Positions 2,749 through 54,125 of a stretch of 60,922 nucleotides of DNA are shown in pieces. Positions within the stretch are counted from its first letter, which is position 1; each line of letters starts with the position of its first letter. The DNA is from a bacterium (GTDB lineage Bacteria; Cyanobacteriota; Vampirovibrionia; Gastranaerophilales; Gastranaerophilaceae): assembly GCA_017403285.1 (NCBI GenBank), contig JAFQOI010000116.1, positions 1 to 60,922 of the forward strand, in the 5' to 3' direction. The position numbers were made by a program, and so were the translations under genes. The notes under the pieces were generated by a model. It was not told where the DNA came from and searched no databases. It was given only the letters and a program-made list of their open reading frames with translations.

Positions 2749-5700
2749 CTATATGATTGGATTTTGTTTTGTACCTGCATTTACATATTTCTTTTCAGTT
2801 GGTTGTTGAACTTTTTCAACTTTTTTACCAAGTTGCCATCTAAAACCACCTTGGAAACCAACACCATCACGACCACCTGATGTTACAAATGCTTGTATAA
2901 ATCCAGTTAGTCTTTCGCCCCAAGTTTTTCTAACACCAACACCATATTTAGCATAAGGTTTTACACTTAATTCAGGCAATGCTGTATCATTGGCTTTGAA
3001 GTTAGCATCATTCAATGCATTCATAACAACGCTAACACCTGCGTATGGTTGCCATCCATTTGCTAGATTTCCAATAAATTTAACTCCTGGTTCAAATGTA
3101 AATGCGTGTAATGCATTTGAGTCAATTCTAACGTTAGCAGCATTTGTATAATCAAATGTATTAACCATAGAATAAGCCATCATTAAACTTGGCTGAATGA
3201 TGAATTTGCCATCTGCAAATTCATAGTTATAACCAGATTTTGATGCGATACCAGTCATTAGCATTGAGAAGTCTTCACTTCCAAACATTGTATCTGCTTC
3301 AGCGACATTAGCACCGATGTTAGCAGTTAATGCTGTAAAGAAGTTACCTTTATATGCCATACCAGTAACACCAAGTGTACCACCATTTTGGTAAATACTG
3401 TTACCTTGATATGCTTGGTGAGAACCATTATAACCAGCATAAATGTTGATTAAACCATCCCAACCATTTCCAAGTTCTAACAAACCTGATTCAAGACCAG
3501 CAAAAGAACCCCATGCAACATTTGATACTTTTGGTCCACCATCAAGTCTTACACTTTCAAAAGTACCATATGGATTAAACCAACCTGCTTTTTCTGCTTG
3601 CAATGCATATGGTTCTTGATATGGCAATACACTTTCTGTAACTGCGTATTTATTGGCATATTTCATTGCTTGACGTTGTTCTTTTGTCATCAACATATAC
3701 ATATCCATATTTCTGAATGCTTGATCGTATGTATTTAATTGATTTAAATAACCGCCCATATAAGCCGCAACAGAAGAAGCCATAACTGCAGGGTTGAAAT
3801 CATTATAACCATTACCAGTTGGATTATAATTTAACATTCCATTATTGCTAATTGAACCAGATAATCTTCTGATTGGAGTCATAACATCATTAACAACAGT
3901 ACCTGTTGTATCTATTCCAGCAGTAACTCCAGCATCTGTCAAACCAAGCAAATCATACAAATCTATTTCTACATTGTCAGATGTTGCACCAGTTGCAATC
4001 GAATTAATTTCAGAAATGATAACTCTTGAAGAAGTTCCTTTTAATGCAGAACCAATATCATCACCAGTACCATCATTCATATTAACATCAGCAGAAACTG
4101 TAATATCACTACCATCAGTAGTTATAATACCTTCAGCAAATTGGTCAATTTGATTATTAGTAGTATCTAATTTTGATTCATTTGTCAAGTGAATACCTTT
4201 AACACCAGAAATATCACTACCATCATTCAAATGAAGTGTTGAAGCATCAACAGTCATTGCTGCATTTTTAATTGCAGATTGAACATCAAGTGTACCACCA
4301 CCAGCAACATTCATATCAAATCCAGCGTCATTACCAGAAACACCAGATGCAAATGTTACTGATTTATCGGATCCAATATTAACATCTAAATCACTTGAAG
4401 CACCTTCCATGAATATATCGTTACTTCCTGTAGAATCTGTATTACCAGAAAGTAACATATCCTCATTTAGAGCATTAAGTGTTACATTTCCATTCGCATA
4501 TATAGCGCCACCAATACCATCAGCAGAGTTGTTTATAAAACTTGCATCAGTAATATCAACCGCAGATACACCAGAACCTAAGTCAGCGGCTTCATTATAT
4601 ATAGCACCACCATTACCACCAGATTTATTATTTTCAAATGTTACGCCTTTTAAAGCAACATTATCAGGAACTGATTGGCTATTATAGAATGCATTGTAAA
4701 TAGCACCACCATCACCAGCAGATTCATTGTTTTTAAATGTAGTATCAGAAATATCCAACTTACCATTTTGGTTATTGGCTTTTAGATTATCTCTTGTTGC
4801 AATAGCGCCACCATTATTTGCAGAATAGTTATTCTCAAAAACTGAATTTTTGACTTCTGTAACAGATGAAGCACCTAAAAATAATGCGGCACCACCATCA
4901 GTACATCCTGCAATTTCACCTGTAGCTTTATTGTTTTCAAATCTTGTATTATCAATTGTCATTCCTAATGATGACCAGTTACCGACAGCACCACCATCAC
5001 TCGCAATATTACCATCAAATAAACTATCCTTGATAGTTACGCTACTTTTACTCAATGTATAGTTTGCAATAGCACTTGTAGTAGCTGCTTCGTTTTCTTT
5101 AAATTCAGAAGATTCAATAAGAATATTACCACCAGTAATTTGAACAGCACCGCCCATATCAGTAGCACTATTTTTATTAAATGATGAGTTTTTAATTGTT
5201 AGGTCACTTTGAGCATATATAGCTCCACCATCAACAGCAGTATTTTCTGAGAAGGAAGAACCCGTAATATCTATATTTGAAGCATTGCCATTTTTATCTT
5301 TATCATTATGATTAAACAATGCACCACCTTGTGTTGCACTATTTCCTTCAAACGTAGAATTTGAAACTGAAGCACCACTATAGAAGTAATTGTCTATAGC
5401 ACCACCGGTGGTAGCTGCTTCATTGCCAGTAAAAGTTGAATTAGTTATATTCAAAATTCCAGCAGAGTTATCATTTTTTGTGTCATCTGGATTAGTAGAT
5501 TTTCTTGTACCAATAGCACCACCGGAAGTAGCAGAAGTATTATATTCAAAAATTACATTATCTAAAACAGCAATAGCACCTTCTGAACCAACAAATATTG
5601 CACCACCACCATCACCAGTTGGAGATGTTGCCTTATTAGCTCTAAATGTTGTATTTGTAATTTCTCCTTCGTTAAAAATACCAACACCACCGACATCAAG

Positions 5701-6192
5701 TGCTTCATTATATTCAAATAGAGAGCCATCTATATCAATTTTTGAAACACGATTCCCATTTAGGCTTGCATATTGATATACAGTTCCCCAATTTGCTTTG
5801 TTGTATCTAAAATCAGTATTATTTATATTAACCAAGCCATTTCTTACAGATACAGCAGAACCATCCGCCTCATTTGCAAGAATTTCATTATATTCAAACT
5901 TAGAATCTGAAATATTAACAATTTTATTTTTTGCATCAACAAATATAGCACCTCCGCTAGCACCAACACCTGTAGATGAATTTCTCAAATATTCAGAATC
6001 TGTAATATCTAAATTACCCTTAGCAAAAACAGCACCACCACTTTCAGTAGTTGTCAAATCAGAAACAACCTCAGAAATAATTGATTTTGATTCATCTGTT
6101 TCAACAACAAGCCTTTCAGCAGCGTTTGACTGTGTACTTATTGACATAGCAGAAAGCAATATGGCAAAAGCAAGCACTTGTTTCTTCTTCAT
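2749..6192 (-). CDS. Pmp-repeat autotransporter adhesin
   Basis: 1147 residues when started at the ATG at 6192, which has GGAGAG 5 bases upstream; the in-frame TTG at 6204 lies on the ribosome site itself and is rejected. Residues 1-24 are a signal peptide ending S-N-A-A. From about 50 to 600 there are roughly a dozen repeats pairing G-G-A-[IVL] with F-x-x-N (for example FEYNTSATSGGAI, FENNKSGGNGGAIYN), as in chlamydial polymorphic membrane proteins, a beta-helix passenger. The last ~260 residues (from WFNPYGTF) are alternating beta strands typical of an autotransporter barrel, ending G-G-F-R-W-Q-L. About 20 polar residues follow the last strand, so the usual terminal Phe is missing. Predicted surface-exposed adhesin, own promoter. 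Confidence 0.88.
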   Translation of the reverse strand: MKKKQVLAFAILLSAMSISTQSNAAERLVVETDESKSIISEVVSDLTTTESGGAVFAKGNLDITDSEYLRNSSTGVGASGGAIFVDAKNKIVNISDSKFEYNEILANEADGSAVSVRNGLVNINNTDFRYNKANWGTVYQYASLNGNRVSKIDIDGSLFEYNEALDVGGVGIFNEGEITNTTFRANKATSPTGDGGGAIFVGSEGAIAVLDNVIFEYNTSATSGGAIGTRKSTNPDDTKNDNSAGILNITNSTFTGNEAATTGGAIDNYFYSGASVSNSTFEGNSATQGGALFNHNDKDKNGNASNIDITGSSFSENTAVDGGAIYAQSDLTIKNSSFNKNSATDMGGAVQITGGNILIESSEFKENEAATTSAIANYTLSKSSVTIKDSLFDGNIASDGGAVGNWSSLGMTIDNTRFENNKATGEIAGCTDGGAALFLGASSVTEVKNSVFENNYSANNGGAIATRDNLKANNQNGKLDISDTTFKNNESAGDGGAIYNAFYNSQSVPDNVALKGVTFENNKSGGNGGAIYNEAADLGSGVSAVDITDASFINNSADGIGGAIYANGNVTLNALNEDMLLSGNTDSTGSNDIFMEGASSDLDVNIGSDKSVTFASGVSGNDAGFDMNVAGGGTLDVQSAIKNAAMTVDASTLHLNDGSDISGVKGIHLTNESKLDTTNNQIDQFAEGIITTDGSDITVSADVNMNDGTGDDIGSALKGTSSRVIISEINSIATGATSDNVEIDLYDLLGLTDAGVTAGIDTTGTVVNDVMTPIRRLSGSISNNGMLNYNPTGNGYNDFNPAVMASSVAAYMGGYLNQLNTYDQAFRNMDMYMLMTKEQRQAMKYANKYAVTESVLPYQEPYALQAEKAGWFNPYGTFESVRLDGGPKVSNVAWGSFAGLESGLLELGNGWDGLINIYAGYNGSHQAYQGNSIYQNGGTLGVTGMAYKGNFFTALTANIGANVAEADTMFGSEDFSMLMTGIASKSGYNYEFADGKFIIQPSLMMAYSMVNTFDYTNAANVRIDSNALHAFTFEPGVKFIGNLANGWQPYAGVSVVMNALNDANFKANDTALPELSVKPYAKYGVGVRKTWGERLTGFIQAFVTSGGRDGVGFQGGFRWQLGKKVEKVQQPTEKKYVNAGTKQNPII

Positions 6193-6248
6193 TTTTCTCT
6201 CCAATCTTAAATTTTATAAATCAAATATAACTATCTAATTCCATTGAT

Positions 6249-21899: not shown

Positions 21900-22436
21900 A
21901 TGAATATGGATGCAGATTTAATTTCATTTGATTTTATGACAGATTTTAATGGTCTAAAAAGACATTATCCCACGGAATTTTATCCATCAGGGGTTTATGA
22001 TGGTGAAAAAAAAGAATACAAGTATGGTCCTGCATCAACAGAATACCCAAATCTTACTCTCCCTTGTAATTTGTACGACAATTTTGGTAATAAAATCTCC
22101 CACGGATACTATATGGTTGTATTATCTCAAGATATGAAAAATCTTGAACTATATCAAAGTAATCAACTAGTTGCAAAAGTGAAAGTTGTTAAACTTGTTG
22201 AAAAAATGTATACACAAGAAGAACTTGAAGAAGAAAATGAAATTATTGGAAGATTAAAAACCGCAATAGAAAAGAAAAAACTTCAAAAGTATAGAAAAGC
22301 AGAAGAGGATTTAATTGCTTTTAAAGAAAGGGCTAAAGCCGAATCTTTCGCTGAAATTTTTGATTCTGGTAAAGGTTACTACATTCTGAAATATAAATTT
22401 AACGGAAAATATGCAACTGGGATAATACAAAAATAA
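21900..22436 (+). CDS. Hypothetical protein with beta-rich head and coiled-coil middle
   Basis: 178 residues, not recognised. Residues 1-105 are rich in aromatic and beta-type stretches (FYPSGVYDGEKKEYKYGPAS, GYYMVVLSQDMKNLELYQSN); 108-150 is a charged helix likely to form a coiled coil; a short beta tail (KGYYILKYKFNGKYATG) ends it. No signal or membrane part. No ribosome site is seen; a TAAAAT at 21885-21890 would start an almost leaderless mRNA (inference). It lies 44 bases before the FlhA-C-like gene on the same strand, so the two may work together. Confidence 0.7.
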   Translation: MNMDADLISFDFMTDFNGLKRHYPTEFYPSGVYDGEKKEYKYGPASTEYPNLTLPCNLYDNFGNKISHGYYMVVLSQDMKNLELYQSNQLVAKVKVVKLVEKMYTQEELEEENEIIGRLKTAIEKKKLQKYRKAEEDLIAFKERAKAESFAEIFDSGKGYYILKYKFNGKYATGIIQK

Positions 22437-22480: not shown

Positions 22481-23944
22481 ATGTATAGACCTACAAAAAA
22501 CATTTATACAATAAGAACTTCCCCTTTTAATGACAATGAAAAATTAGAAGCACTTCTAAATGAAATGTCAAATGATGGGTGGGATGTTTATTCAATCCAA
22601 GAAATAGAAAATGATGACGGTATTTTCTATAATTGCATATTCATAAAAGAAACCGAAAATGAAGATACTTCCTTTGATGAAACTTCTGATTTGTTAAATT
22701 TCAAATCTAGAATTGAACGTATAATAAATCCAGAACTTGACCCTTATGAAACTTGTGTTGATATTCAAAAGAAAATAAAAGAAAAAAGAATTAGAATGGC
22801 ACAAGTTAAAGCATTGATAGATGAAACATCAGAAGACGCTAGAACAATGCTAAATAATGAAATTTCAAAATTAATTGACGAAGTAGACGAACTAAAACGC
22901 CAATTGTCAAAAGTGATTACTCCAGATATTATGGAGAAAAAACTGGGCGAACAAAAAATCACACTCTCAATTTCTGAAGAACTTATTGATATTCTTGATA
23001 ATGATAATGAGTTTAATATTCTATCAAGGATAGTTTTAATAAGACAAAATTTAACAGATTCTCTAGGCTACATAATCCCTAAAATCAAGATTGAAATCGA
23101 TGATGCACTTGAAGAAAACGAATTTTCTATAAAAGTCAGAGGTATCACTGCATTCAAAGCAAAAGCATATAACTCTCACACTATGTTCTTCAAAGATGAA
23201 CTCAATATTGAAAAGTTGCCAAAAGATTCAATAGAAGAAATTGATCCTACAACAAATCTAAAAACATTATGGATTGATACAGAATTTGCAAAAGATTTCT
23301 GGGCAAAAGGATTTGATACTACTGACTATATTGCAAAAGTAATTGAACATACAGTTACTAAGTATATAGATGACCTTTTTGATTATTCTGACATCAATAG
23401 ATATATTGAAATTGTTGGAAATCAAAACCTATACTTAATAGAAAATATCATTCCAGACTATATCTCTGTTGCAGAATTAAAATATATCCTAACAAGCCTT
23501 ATAAAAGAAAAAGTTTCAATTAAAGATATCGTTTATATCTTTGAAAAAATAAATGATTTTTCTGACGAAACCGATAAAGAAGAACTTTTAGAAAGAATTA
23601 GAATTTCTTTAGCTAGACAAATATCAAATTCTTTGGCTGAGGAGGAAAGCAAAACAATTTATGCTTACGAATTATCCGAAAAAAGTTTGGAATCATTTGC
23701 CGGCGAAAAATCAGACGATGAAGTAATAAAAATCGAAAGCAACAAAATCGAAGAAGTAATAAAACATATAAAAGAAAAAGTGGCTAAATTCAGCCCCGAT
23801 TCAAAAGAAGTCGTTATCATAGCTCCAAGGAAAATTAGACATTTAATTTTCTTGATTCTTTCTCAAATGTTGCCAAACGTAAGGGTTGTTGCAAGAGAAG
23901 AACTAATCTTTGATTATCCACTTCAAATTATAAGCCGTATATAA
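22481..23944 (+). CDS. Soluble FlhA C-terminal (FHIPEP cytoplasmic) domain protein with DUF4177-like N-terminus
   Basis: 487 residues with no membrane helix. Residues 1-58 look like DUF4177 (KLEALLNEMSNDGWDVYSI, then a strand ending C-I-F-I-K-E). Residues 66-145 are a charged coiled coil. Residues about 155-487 follow the order of the FlhA/SctV cytoplasmic domain: LSRIVLIRQNLTDSLGYIIP (181-200), NEFSIKVRGITAFKAKAY (213-230), LWIDTEFAKD, VIEHTVTKYIDDLF, LIENIIPDYISVAEL, LIKEKVSIKDIVYIFEKIND, LERIRISLARQIS, VVIIAPRKIRHLIFLIL. In flagella this domain forms the nine-fold ring that receives export substrates. Here the eight membrane helices are replaced by a different N-terminus. GAGGA precedes the ATG. 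Family by remembered consensus; role unknown. Confidence 0.75.
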   Translation: MYRPTKNIYTIRTSPFNDNEKLEALLNEMSNDGWDVYSIQEIENDDGIFYNCIFIKETENEDTSFDETSDLLNFKSRIERIINPELDPYETCVDIQKKIKEKRIRMAQVKALIDETSEDARTMLNNEISKLIDEVDELKRQLSKVITPDIMEKKLGEQKITLSISEELIDILDNDNEFNILSRIVLIRQNLTDSLGYIIPKIKIEIDDALEENEFSIKVRGITAFKAKAYNSHTMFFKDELNIEKLPKDSIEEIDPTTNLKTLWIDTEFAKDFWAKGFDTTDYIAKVIEHTVTKYIDDLFDYSDINRYIEIVGNQNLYLIENIIPDYISVAELKYILTSLIKEKVSIKDIVYIFEKINDFSDETDKEELLERIRISLARQISNSLAEEESKTIYAYELSEKSLESFAGEKSDDEVIKIESNKIEEVIKHIKEKVAKFSPDSKEVVIIAPRKIRHLIFLILSQMLPNVRVVAREELIFDYPLQIISRI

Positions 23945-50648: not shown

Positions 50649-51431
50649 TTAAAATATATTGGCAAAAGACAAGAAATAATCTTCAATAACATTAAGCATG
50701 TTTGGCATAATAAAGATTAAAACCAAAGCACCAAGTCCAGGTTTGAACATAAAGCTCATTTGGAATACTGGTATTTGCTGGGCAGTTCTATTAATAACAC
50801 CAAGAATAATATCTTGCCCTAATGTTGCAATAAGAACTGGAGAAGCAATTTGCAAACCAATATATAATACATTTGATGTTATTTTAACCAAATACGGCAT
50901 ATTTATAATTTCATCAAGGGGAACAGCGTGTGCATATACAGGAAATATTTCAAAACTTCTAATAAAAGCATTGAAAGTCCAATAAGCACCACCTATTTTC
51001 AAGAATAAAATAATTCCCAAAAGACCAAACAAACGCCCCATAACAGAAACTTGCGAAGAGGAAGAAGGATCCATAATTGTTGCGGAGTTAAGACCTTGTT
51101 GCATATTTATCATATCCCCACCTGCTTCTATCGCAAGTACAATACAATTTATAATAAAACCAATTATTGCCCCACATATAAAATTAACAATAATTGAATA
51201 CAACATTGAATTTTGACCTGTAGGCATCTCTGGTTTTAAGAACAGACATAATATAACAGTTAAAATAAGAGCAAATCCAGTTCTTGCAATAACTGGTATT
51301 TCTGTTCTTTTTAAGAAAGGTGCTGTTCTCATCAAACCAGCAACTCTTGCAAAAACAGGAATTCCTGCAGCTATTACGCCATTAATTTCTGGAAAATATT
51401 TAGGAAATTCTGTTAATATCGTATCAAGCAT
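50649..51431 (-). CDS. fliR: Flagellar export gate protein FliR (SctT family)
   Basis: 260 residues, normal length, with six to seven hydrophobic segments. Family signs: GIPVFARVAGLMRTAPFL, PVIARTGFALILTVIL, FNICGAIIGFI-like helix, GGDMINMQQGLNSATIMDP, and a helix-rich end (FMFKPGLGALVLIFIMPN). It forms the export pore with FliP5 and FliQ4. AGGGAAA precedes the ATG. Last of the set double-SpoA protein, FliO, FliP, FliQ, FliR; flhB, which often follows or fuses, is absent here. Confidence 0.93.
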   Translation of the reverse strand: MLDTILTEFPKYFPEINGVIAAGIPVFARVAGLMRTAPFLKRTEIPVIARTGFALILTVILCLFLKPEMPTGQNSMLYSIIVNFICGAIIGFIINCIVLAIEAGGDMINMQQGLNSATIMDPSSSSQVSVMGRLFGLLGIILFLKIGGAYWTFNAFIRSFEIFPVYAHAVPLDEIINMPYLVKITSNVLYIGLQIASPVLIATLGQDIILGVINRTAQQIPVFQMSFMFKPGLGALVLIFIMPNMLNVIEDYFLSFANIF

Positions 51432-51446
51432 TATTTTTCCCTAATA

Positions 51447-51947
51447 TTATCTTTGATTTTCCATTATTGTTTTTTGTTCCACAAGATTTGGTGTAGGAAC
51501 TTCGTTTATCTTATTTTTTAAAACACTAAATTTTTCTTTATCTTTATTTCCCATAGGTCTTGATGCGCTATTTAGAATAGTAGACATAGGAACCATATCT
51601 TTTTTATAATCTGTTTTCATCTCATCTATGAATGGCTTTGTATAGTTATAATAATCAGAAGAAAGAACAAACTCATCATTTTTAGGGATAACATTAAATG
51701 CAATCGACGCACCTTCTGTAAAAAAGTTTGTCAAAAGTTTAACATATCCAGCACCAAGTATTATTATAACCAAGAAAACAGCAAATATTTTTGGAGCTGC
51801 TGCAATTGTTTGTTCTTGCACCTGAGTTACTGCCTGAAGAATGCCAACAATAAGACCAATTGCTGCCGCAGTTAATACACAAGGCATTGCAATCATTAGC
51901 ATTGTAATTAGCCCTTTTGCCAAATATTCCATTAATACGCTTTCCAT
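51447..51947 (-). CDS. fliQ: Export gate protein FliQ (SctS family) with long C-terminal extension
   Basis: 166 residues from ATG 51947 (AAGGAT 6 bases upstream). Family core 1-80: two membrane helices (LITMLMIAMPCVLTAAAIGL; IFAVFLVIIILGAGYVKLL) and GILQAVTQVQEQT between them. FliQ is normally about 89 residues; here about 85 hydrophilic residues follow (FVLSSDYYNYTKPFIDEMK, many Lys/Asn), which I do not recognise. Frame and composition continue without break, so a sequencing fusion is unlikely. Start lies 11 bases after the fliP stop. Confidence 0.9.
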   Translation of the reverse strand: MESVLMEYLAKGLITMLMIAMPCVLTAAAIGLIVGILQAVTQVQEQTIAAAPKIFAVFLVIIILGAGYVKLLTNFFTEGASIAFNVIPKNDEFVLSSDYYNYTKPFIDEMKTDYKKDMVPMSTILNSASRPMGNKDKEKFSVLKNKINEVPTPNLVEQKTIMENQR

Positions 51948-51957
51948 AGCAAAATCC

Positions 51958-52599
51958 TTAGTTATAACTACCAACTAATCCATTTACAATAAGTCCCCAA
52001 CCGTCAACGGCAATAAATATAAGCAATTTAAACGGCAAAGAAATAATCGTTGGAGACAACATAAACATCCCCAGTGCGAGCAGTACATTCGCAACGACAA
52101 GATCTAGTACAATAAACGGAATAAAAATTATAAATCCAATTTGGAATGCAGTTTGAAGTTCGCTCAAAATATATGCTGGAGCAACTTCCCAAATTGTAAT
52201 ATCATCAACACTTTCAGGTGCTTCTTTTCTTGCCAACTGAACAAAGAAAGCCAAATCTTTTTCTCTTGTTTGTTTTAGCATAAACTCTTTTAGAGGCTTT
52301 GACCCTTCTGATATTGCAAGCACCATCGAGCCACTTTCTTGATAAGGTTTTGAACCAACTTCATACATTTGTTGAAAAACTGGCGCCATAGTATAAAAAG
52401 TTAATATCATTGAAAGCCCAACTAAAACTATTGCTGGTGGGATTTGTTGTGCACCCAGTGCTTGTTTTAATATACCAAATACAATCGCATATCTTAAAAA
52501 GCTCGTCATACAAACAAACATAAAAGGCAATAGTGAAAACATTGCCATTACTGCCAATAATTGAAGTACGGGACTTAAATCCTTTAATACTGTATCCAT
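51958..52599 (-). CDS. fliP: Flagellar export gate protein FliP (SctR family)
   Basis: 213 residues. Four membrane helices and the conserved MTSFLRYAIVFGILKQALG, AQQIPPAIVLVGLSMILTFY, then a 70-residue periplasmic part and LSELQTAFQIGFIIFIPFIVLDLVVAN-type helices with the closing MLSPTIISLPFKLLIF. No cleavable signal peptide, unlike FliP of enterobacteria, which starts about 30 residues earlier. AGAGG precedes the ATG, 3 bases after fliO. Core of the export channel. Confidence 0.95.
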   Translation of the reverse strand: MDTVLKDLSPVLQLLAVMAMFSLLPFMFVCMTSFLRYAIVFGILKQALGAQQIPPAIVLVGLSMILTFYTMAPVFQQMYEVGSKPYQESGSMVLAISEGSKPLKEFMLKQTREKDLAFFVQLARKEAPESVDDITIWEVAPAYILSELQTAFQIGFIIFIPFIVLDLVVANVLLALGMFMLSPTIISLPFKLLIFIAVDGWGLIVNGLVGSYN

Positions 52600-52602
52600 T
52601 TC

Positions 52603-52938
52603 TTACCTCTGGTCATTTGATGTTGTATATTGTAAATCTTGCGAATATTTTGTTGTTTTAATATCCAAATCATTTGTGTTTAAATTCAAATTTTCTAACT
52701 TAGAAAGCATTGTTGTACTGTTATTATCCCCTGCAATAAGAAATCGTTCTGTTCCAACATTTAATATATATATTGTCTTCGTTGGGGACAATTTCATTGC
52801 AGTTTCCACGCTTAGTATTTTTTTATCGTTCTTTTGCAAAGGCGTATAAATTGTTTTTTTATACACATACAACGCTAGGGCAATAAAACCAACCATTGCG
52901 AAAGTATAGATTATAAAATTAGCCAAGTATCCGTTCAT
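52603..52938 (-). CDS. fliO: FliO-like flagellar biosynthesis protein
   Basis: 111 residues: one N-terminal membrane helix (about 5-25, FIIYTFAMVGFIALALYVYK) and a small cytoplasmic beta domain (ILSVETAMKLSPTKTIYILNVGTERFLIAG), which matches the L-x-P-x-x-x-x-x-x-V-x-V-G-x-x-x-x-L-I-G pattern of FliO/FliZ. FliO assists assembly of the FliP ring and is typical of flagellar rather than injectisome systems. GAGGG upstream; 8 bases after the SpoA gene. Call rests on size, position and the one motif. Confidence 0.75.
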   Translation of the reverse strand: MNGYLANFIIYTFAMVGFIALALYVYKKTIYTPLQKNDKKILSVETAMKLSPTKTIYILNVGTERFLIAGDNNSTTMLSKLENLNLNTNDLDIKTTKYSQDLQYTTSNDQR

Positions 52939-52946
52939 AATACCCT

Positions 52947-54125
52947 CTATATACTTTCATCTTCTATTTCAAAATCTGAGTAATCAAAGTTTTCATCACC
53001 TTGTTTTGTTGCTTTTCTTGGCATTGCATCTGGAGCATCTTCTGCTTCTTGTTGAACACCATTTTTCGCAACTTTATCTGATTTCTTTGATGCTTCAGTT
53101 GCTTTATGTTTTTTTATGGTTTCAACACGAACTCCATACCTGTCATTCAAAATAACAAGTTCGCCTATTGCAACAACTTGATTTTCAACTCTTAGTTTGA
53201 TTTTATTGTTATAGACAGAACCTACATCAATAACCAAACCTTCAGAAATTTGTTTTAATTCGCCAAGAGTCAACTTGACATTATCAAATTCTGCAACTAC
53301 ATCAACAAGAATAGAATCCCACATATTTTGAGATTTAGTGCTTGTTTCTTCCATTTCATGGCCTCCGTTACTGTTAATGCTTATTATTAATGACGGATTA
53401 GGATTTATATTAAATCTTATTTCTTCTTCTTCCCATACAACCGACATTGTGTTTATATCACTATCATCTAGGACTATAATATCGCCAACTTCTATGTTCT
53501 TTATGTCTGTTAACGATATTTTAGTGCTACCTAGTTTAACTTTTAAAAGTGCTTTTGTTTTTCTAAAATCATTTATAGAAAATGTATCTTCTTTTTTTTC
53601 TAACTCTATTTCTGGAATCATATATTCTGGAATTCTAAATATAATCTTCCCAATATGATTATTTGAATTTCTTACAAAGAATGTAAAATTAAGATTACGA
53701 GAATTTTGTAAAATATGTTTTGTGGGATCTTTTTTATTAAGATTTGCCTGAATACCTTTATAAAGATATACAATATATGATTTTATAACTCCTGCTTCTA
53801 TATCAGTAAGTTTTGAAAGACTAAATTTTCCACTATTATTTCCTAATGCCTCATCTAAGAAAAATTCTGTAACTGAAGAAGATATTTTAACTTTAAAGTC
53901 TGATGATTTATTTATAGGAAGCGTATTAACAAAATATTCATCTCCATAGAAGAGAACATTTTCATCATAAGAAACCCCCATAAATCTTATAGAAAAAGGT
54001 CGTTGAAAGAATTTTTCACTACTTTCAACCAATTTTTTGTACAAATTAACATAAAACCATTGATATTTCTTGGAAATATCATTTTTTGTCAATGCATGTG
54101 TAATATTTTCTGTTAAATTCGTCAT
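52947..54125 (-). CDS. FliM/FliN-like switch protein with two SpoA domains
   Basis: 392 residues. The N-terminal 200 residues are FliM-middle-like in size but diverged. First SpoA domain about 190-245 (KTKALLKVKLGSTKISLTDI ... GDIIVLDD), second about 270-335 (ILVDVVAEFDNVKLTLGELK ... NQVVAIGELVILNDRYGVRV), the latter close to FliN. The tail is polar and acidic. The FliM CheY-binding N-terminal motif (E-I-D-A-L-L type) is absent. Two SpoA domains in one chain is the plan of injectisome SctQ/SpaO, yet the fliO next door points to a flagellum. AGGG precedes the ATG; first gene of the cluster. Confidence 0.82.
   Translation of the reverse strand: MTNLTENITHALTKNDISKKYQWFYVNLYKKLVESSEKFFQRPFSIRFMGVSYDENVLFYGDEYFVNTLPINKSSDFKVKISSSVTEFFLDEALGNNSGKFSLSKLTDIEAGVIKSYIVYLYKGIQANLNKKDPTKHILQNSRNLNFTFFVRNSNNHIGKIIFRIPEYMIPEIELEKKEDTFSINDFRKTKALLKVKLGSTKISLTDIKNIEVGDIIVLDDSDINTMSVVWEEEEIRFNINPNPSLIISINSNGGHEMEETSTKSQNMWDSILVDVVAEFDNVKLTLGELKQISEGLVIDVGSVYNNKIKLRVENQVVAIGELVILNDRYGVRVETIKKHKATEASKKSDKVAKNGVQQEAEDAPDAMPRKATKQGDENFDYSDFEIEDESI

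Follow-up and report, generated by a model that had tools for sequence, protein, structure and literature searches.

The gene at positions 22481-23944 of the window, a 60,922-nt stretch of Gastranaerophilaceae DNA, encodes a membrane-free paralog of the cytoplasmic domain of FlhA/SctV (FlhA-C). The original prediction had described a soluble FlhA-C behind a DUF4177-like head and a coiled coil, and had considered this architecture undescribed. Profile searches and structural modelling confirmed the architecture, and the literature that we searched for truncated or soluble FlhA and for secretion in Gastranaerophilales, which included few subscription papers, held no description of such a paralog. 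Coordinates of this gene and of other features of the window are collected in Table 1.

Table 1. Features of the window discussed in the text (positions on the forward strand).
Feature	Position	Strand	Remarks
Soluble FlhA-C paralog, whole gene	22481..23944	+	487 aa, uninterrupted ORF
Head domain, residues about 5-58	22493..22654	+	beta-alpha-beta-beta, DUF4177-like fold, sequence score below Pfam cut-off
Coiled-coil helical hairpin, residues 88-145	22742..22915	+	helices 88-115 and 118-145 (model)
FlhA/SctV cytoplasmic domain D1-D4, residues 149-487	22925..23941	+	
D3 subdomain, residues 301-378, core KEKVSIKDIVYIFEKINDF	23381..23614	+	most conserved region among homologs
p178, 178-aa protein directly upstream of soluble gene	21900..22436	+	no Pfam or NCBIfam match
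fliR/sctT, probably Sys2	50649..51431	-	
fliQ/sctS	51447..51974	-	long C-terminal extension
fliP/sctR	51958..52599	-	FliP model over cut-off
fliO	52603..52938	-	
SctQ/FliM-FliN-like C-ring protein	52947..54125	-	SpoA (FliMN_C) domain

The reading frame is preceded by a GAGG a few bases 5' of its ATG. Its product matched the Pfam profile FHIPEP at 175.8 bits (E 2e-51, cut-off 29.1), with residues 141-475 aligned to profile positions 321-652 of 657, the cytoplasmic half only; nothing matched before position 321, where the membrane export-gate half of the profile lies. FHIPEP likewise matched all 30 homologs. The NCBIfam scores were 161.2 bits for FlhA and 87.4 bits for SctV, neither reaching the equivalog cut-off (772.1 and 692.3, respectively). 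About eight membrane helices would be expected in the N-terminal half of FHIPEP, and the soluble protein is predicted to have none: together with the late start of the profile match, its maximum 19-residue hydropathy of 1.3, against 3.1 for the full-length FlhA of the same genome, bears out the claim that the membrane helices are missing. An AlphaFold2 model built from 30 homologs (mean pLDDT 77) resolved three parts: residues 6-58 form the head, 88-145 a hairpin of two helices, and 149-487 an FlhA-C fold with four subdomains. The last of these overlaid FlhA-C and SctV-C structures with Z of 22-30 over about 290-337 residues, and the agreement with crystal structures, reaching Z about 30, upholds with the FHIPEP score the cytoplasmic-domain blocks that had been recognized from sequence.

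Assignment of the head proved less straightforward. Against DUF4177 (PF13783) it scored 13.5 bits, below the Pfam cut-off of 25, and matches among homologs were weak (14/30, best E 0.008). Modelled alone it reached pLDDT 88 as a beta-alpha-beta-beta fold, and the closest predicted viral structures include several with DUF4177/DUF1737 names (TM about 0.6-0.8, E over 0.001). The term DUF4177-like is therefore retained for the fold and given up for family membership. A match to the KCTD5 fold was set aside, its Z of 6.5 falling in the chance range for so small a domain. We also rejected the idea that the coiled coil is a fused FliJ, since the hairpin consists of two 28-residue helices and has no Pfam FliJ match; FliJ was also missing from the top structural matches of the protein, although such absence is no proof. 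Among homologs the N-terminal architecture is single and conserved.

We scanned one genome per species for homologs. Homologous ORFs were found at 80 loci in other species, with 39-85% identity, and they span the whole protein except in one case at a contig edge. The soluble form occurred in 54/57 Gastranaerophilales genomes, the three lacking it being 83-85% complete, and in every sampled genome of the window's family, f1 (52/52 and 85/85, the second sample containing the first). Sampled genomes of other orders of the class had full-length-type FlhA only and no soluble form; their FlhA matches start at profile residue 120 or later, and nearly all of those listed lie in frames of about 700 codons. 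Scores as high as those of the soluble form were confined to Gastranaerophilales in the phylum sample. Among sampled genomes, then, the paralog is near-universal in Gastranaerophilales and confined to that order, and forms with a different head may occur in other phyla. Two genomes of the same phylum but other families (G218, G230) contained up to seven FlhA-C matches each, and truncated FlhA forms may exist there.

Pairwise dN/dS of the soluble gene was 0.035-0.11, most pairs being near saturation at synonymous sites; a close pair gave 0.07. Such values indicate purifying selection. That nearly every member of the order retains the gene suggests a real role in or around protein export. An assembly error that cut away the membrane half, named in the original prediction as the case that would overturn it, or a decaying gene would account for the missing half and for nothing else; the 80 intact orthologs from independent assemblies, the dN/dS values and the conserved N-terminal architecture rule out a cut or pseudogene, and we give this explanation a negligible probability.

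We compared 18 soluble proteins with full-length relatives at functional positions, using Salmonella FlhA numbering. In Salmonella FlhA, Gly368 governs the open-close motion, and Asp456, Phe459 and Thr490 dock chaperones (PMC9431611, PMC8166844). Every full-length protein in the comparison has the hinge glycine of the GYXLI motif, Gly368, whereas 18/18 soluble proteins have Ser at this position. At the chaperone dimple, Phe459 is replaced by Thr or Ser in 16/18, the position of Thr490 mostly holds a charged residue, and Asp456 is retained in 17/18. Mean identity among the 30 homologs was highest in D3, at 66%, against 38% in D4. The protomers of SctV rings are held together by D3-D3 and D3-D1 contacts (PMC8223533), and CdsV is similar (PMC7584215). 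Conservation of D3 could be a sign of ring contacts, or it could instead reflect the fold.

These replacements bear on what the protein may do; the original prediction had suggested that it might be an accessory ring, hold export substrates in reserve or compete with the true gate. Sequence argues against its being a plain substitute for the chaperone-docking platform, because almost all members of the family have other residues in place of Phe459, Thr490 and Gly368 and because the window's genus lacks FliS and almost lacks flagellin (see below). Loss of the hinge glycine and of the dimple alongside a retained D1/D3 core would also suit a non-productive subunit, a regulator or decoy that, by binding FliH/FliI, FliJ or substrates or by capping the ring of FlhA2 (the FlhA of Sys2, see below), restrains export until a signal reaches the head or coiled coil. 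The small head, resembling stand-alone DUF4177/DUF1737 proteins, is in keeping with this. No conserved regulatory gene adjoined the soluble gene in the neighbourhoods examined, and the present evidence fits an accessory ring equally; we consider the regulator or decoy a credible minority reading.

Two export systems were distinguished in the order. Sys1 is a classical flagellum (FlhA E about 1e-263, FliF about 1e-55, many flagellins, FliS, FlgD) and Sys2 a divergent flagellum-derived system (FlhA E about 1e-215, FliF about 1e-33). With few exceptions, families f2-f7 have both. In the window's genus Sys2 FlhA and FliF are present, FliS and FlgD were absent from all 34 genomes searched, and a flagellin match was found in 2/34; this genus retains Sys2 only. 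Its Sys2 includes rod (FlgB, FlgC, FlgF/G-type), MS-ring (FliF), FliE and export-gate genes. In one near-complete genome (G014) the cluster comprises two FlgF/G-type genes, FlgB, FlgC, a lytic transglycosylase, FliE, FliF, a 331-aa protein, FliH, FlhA and FliI. This filament-less cluster (L123:2434-12788, on G014:C1), with the transglycosylase between flgC and fliE, possibly represents a separate export organelle. Uncharacterised proteins occupy the expected fliG place of the Sys2 cluster at L123:7504-8499, where the only match was a weak one to MgtE_N, and at G045:C1:34491-36021.

It had been correctly observed that the window holds fliO, fliP, fliQ and fliR and no full flhA. A genome-wide search located a full-length flhA on another contig (G000:C33:21137-23113), the only full-length FHIPEP of this genome, in tandem with a FliI/SctN-type ATPase and FliH; the genome also has one FlhB. 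Since the genus is without Sys1, the window's fliR-Q-P-O and SctQ/FliM-N-like genes (50649-54125) are most likely part of Sys2 and probably serve a filament-less flagellum-derived system. Such gene sets have been read as an incomplete, reduced or non-functional flagellum (Di Rienzi 2013, PMC3787301; Soo 2014, PMC4040986). The original interpretation thus stands for the architecture, while it missed the full-length FlhA elsewhere in the genome, the filament-less context of fliOPQR, and the status of the soluble gene as an order-wide marker.

In FlhA-C trees the soluble proteins formed one clade with support 100/100, pointing to a single origin. The clade grouped with Sys2 FlhA at support 90/69. 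The soluble profile scored Sys2 FlhA at about 230 bits and Sys1 FlhA at about 140, and identity to Sys2 FlhA exceeded that to Sys1 FlhA in every subdomain. The AU test did not reject grouping with Sys1 FlhA (p 0.134). Descent from Sys2 FlhA is therefore supported, not decisively. The soluble form has evolved much faster than Sys2 FlhA: across the order, mean identity in D3 was 50% for the former and 93% for the latter.

The soluble gene stands alone, and its neighbours vary between families; no Sys2 gene lay beside it in any neighbourhood examined, and no adjoining injectisome gene was seen. Directly upstream in the window, on the same strand and 44 bases away, is the gene for p178, which occurs in 31/34 genomes of the genus and adjoins the soluble gene at 34/80 loci, with weak partial matches in other families. 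Conserved in the genus, p178 may be a partner of the soluble protein. Farther away, positions 2749-6204 of the window encode a 1151-aa protein which, by eye, has many GGAI-type repeats and an autotransporter-barrel-like C-terminus, and is probably a surface protein.

Within family f7, one genus carries an operon of fliJ, a fliK-like gene, flgD and flgE downstream of the soluble gene. We dropped this operon as a link to Sys2: clear homologs of its FliJ and FlgD were confined to flagellated genomes, which assigns it to Sys1, and other neighbourhoods differ, leaving the adjacency only a lead. Together with the AU result, it is what speaks for service to the true flagellum, for example as an extra platform for hook or filament export. 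Such service is very unlikely given that the soluble form occurs in every sampled f1 genome, that the 34 genomes of the window's own genus lack FliS and FlgD, with 32 of them lacking flagellin as well, and that the residues of the flagellar-chaperone dimple are lost.

FlhA-C domains seem to have proliferated in the window's genus. A second FlhA-C-like type (G000:C159, L117:6921-8414; G014:C9, L126:6475-8001) has an N-terminal part of ~190 residues, a central hydrophobic stretch and then an FlhA-C without D4. Members of a third type (G000:C147, L118:2747-3388; L127, L166, L167) are soluble proteins of 213-265 aa that match parts of D1 and D3, without D2 and D4, and lie near the soluble gene in some genomes. 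In the fourth, very divergent type (L162:607-1860, L163:363-1625, L164:531-1811) a complete FlhA-C comes after a hydrophobic N-terminus of about two membrane helices.

Such proteins of other architectures, the solitary gene with its family-dependent neighbours, and the fast evolution relative to Sys2 FlhA would all agree with an exit from secretion, the FlhA-C scaffold being reused as a ring or adaptor in some other process. Every sampled genome with the soluble form also had a full-length (or fragmentary) FlhA match, and we hold such an exit to be rather unlikely.

We favour, at a probability of roughly 45%, a role as an accessory, non-canonical export ring or adaptor, probably derived from Sys2 FlhA. 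At the Sys2 gate the protein would still form or join a ring through D1 and D3, either as an accessory cytoplasmic ring or as a mixed subunit. Its head and coiled coil may have taken over from the lost chaperone dimple as the part that binds cargo or a partner. Having lost both hinge and dimple, the protein would serve as a passive platform, an adaptor or a regulator and not as a second gate. Consistent with this, the soluble form is kept in a genus that has lost Sys1; D3, the ring-contact subdomain in SctV, is its best-conserved part; and it is found throughout the order, under constraint and nearer in sequence to Sys2 FlhA. Against it, neighbours vary and none in the neighbourhoods examined is a Sys2 gene, a flagellar adjacency in one genus of f7 is to Sys1 genes, grouping with Sys1 FlhA survives the AU test, D3 may be conserved for its fold, and the window's fliOPQR is assigned to Sys2 through the absence of Sys1 from the genus. 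Other orders of the class with Sys2-like FlhA have no soluble form, so a Sys2-type system has no general need of it. A bolder version, in which a type III export machine has a second, dedicated soluble FlhA-family ring apart from the membrane gate, with its own recognition head, and evolved alongside a filament-less, flagellum-derived secretion organelle in these gut-dwelling cyanobacterial relatives, is possible but somewhat doubtful.

The cytoplasmic ring of FlhA is a docking station common to flagella and injectisomes, and to our knowledge it is known only as part of the membrane gate. An order-wide natural split of ring from gate makes it possible to ask which among ring building, chaperone docking and hinge motion are separable functions of FlhA-C. 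The paralog is, in addition, a marker of a second export system that has received little notice in the abundant gut Gastranaerophilales.

Compared with FlhA-C of known structure (PDB 3A5I, 3MIX, 3MYD, 6CH1-3), the soluble paralog has the same D1-D4 fold, as judged by Z of 27-30, at 18-24% identity, and conserves the positions Arg391, Trp465, Glu547, Asp553, Glu559 and Arg579. Unlike FlhA, it lacks the membrane gate half, has a new head and coiled coil in front, and differs at Gly368, Phe459 and Thr490 as described above. SctV-C of injectisomes (CdsV 6WA6, MxiA 4A5P, YscV 7QIJ) also shares the fold, with Z up to 30; unlike SctV, the paralog is soluble and nearer to FlhA in sequence (161 vs 87 bits). 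Its best-scoring full-length relatives are Sys2 FlhA proteins of the G000:C33:21137-23113 type, with 35-36% identity in D1 and D3; these are much better conserved and, unlike the paralog, have membrane helices, the hinge Gly and Tyr or Phe at the dimple (as does Sys1 FlhA at the last position). The small DUF4177/DUF1737 domains share with the head a GW[DE]L-type motif and probably the predicted beta-alpha-beta-beta fold, but they are mostly stand-alone proteins, and the head scores below their Pfam cut-off. FlhX of Campylobacterota is comparable in concept, being a truncated paralog of the FlhB cytoplasmic domain; it too has the cytoplasmic part of an export-gate protein free of the membrane, but it derives from FlhB and not from FlhA and has no head domain.
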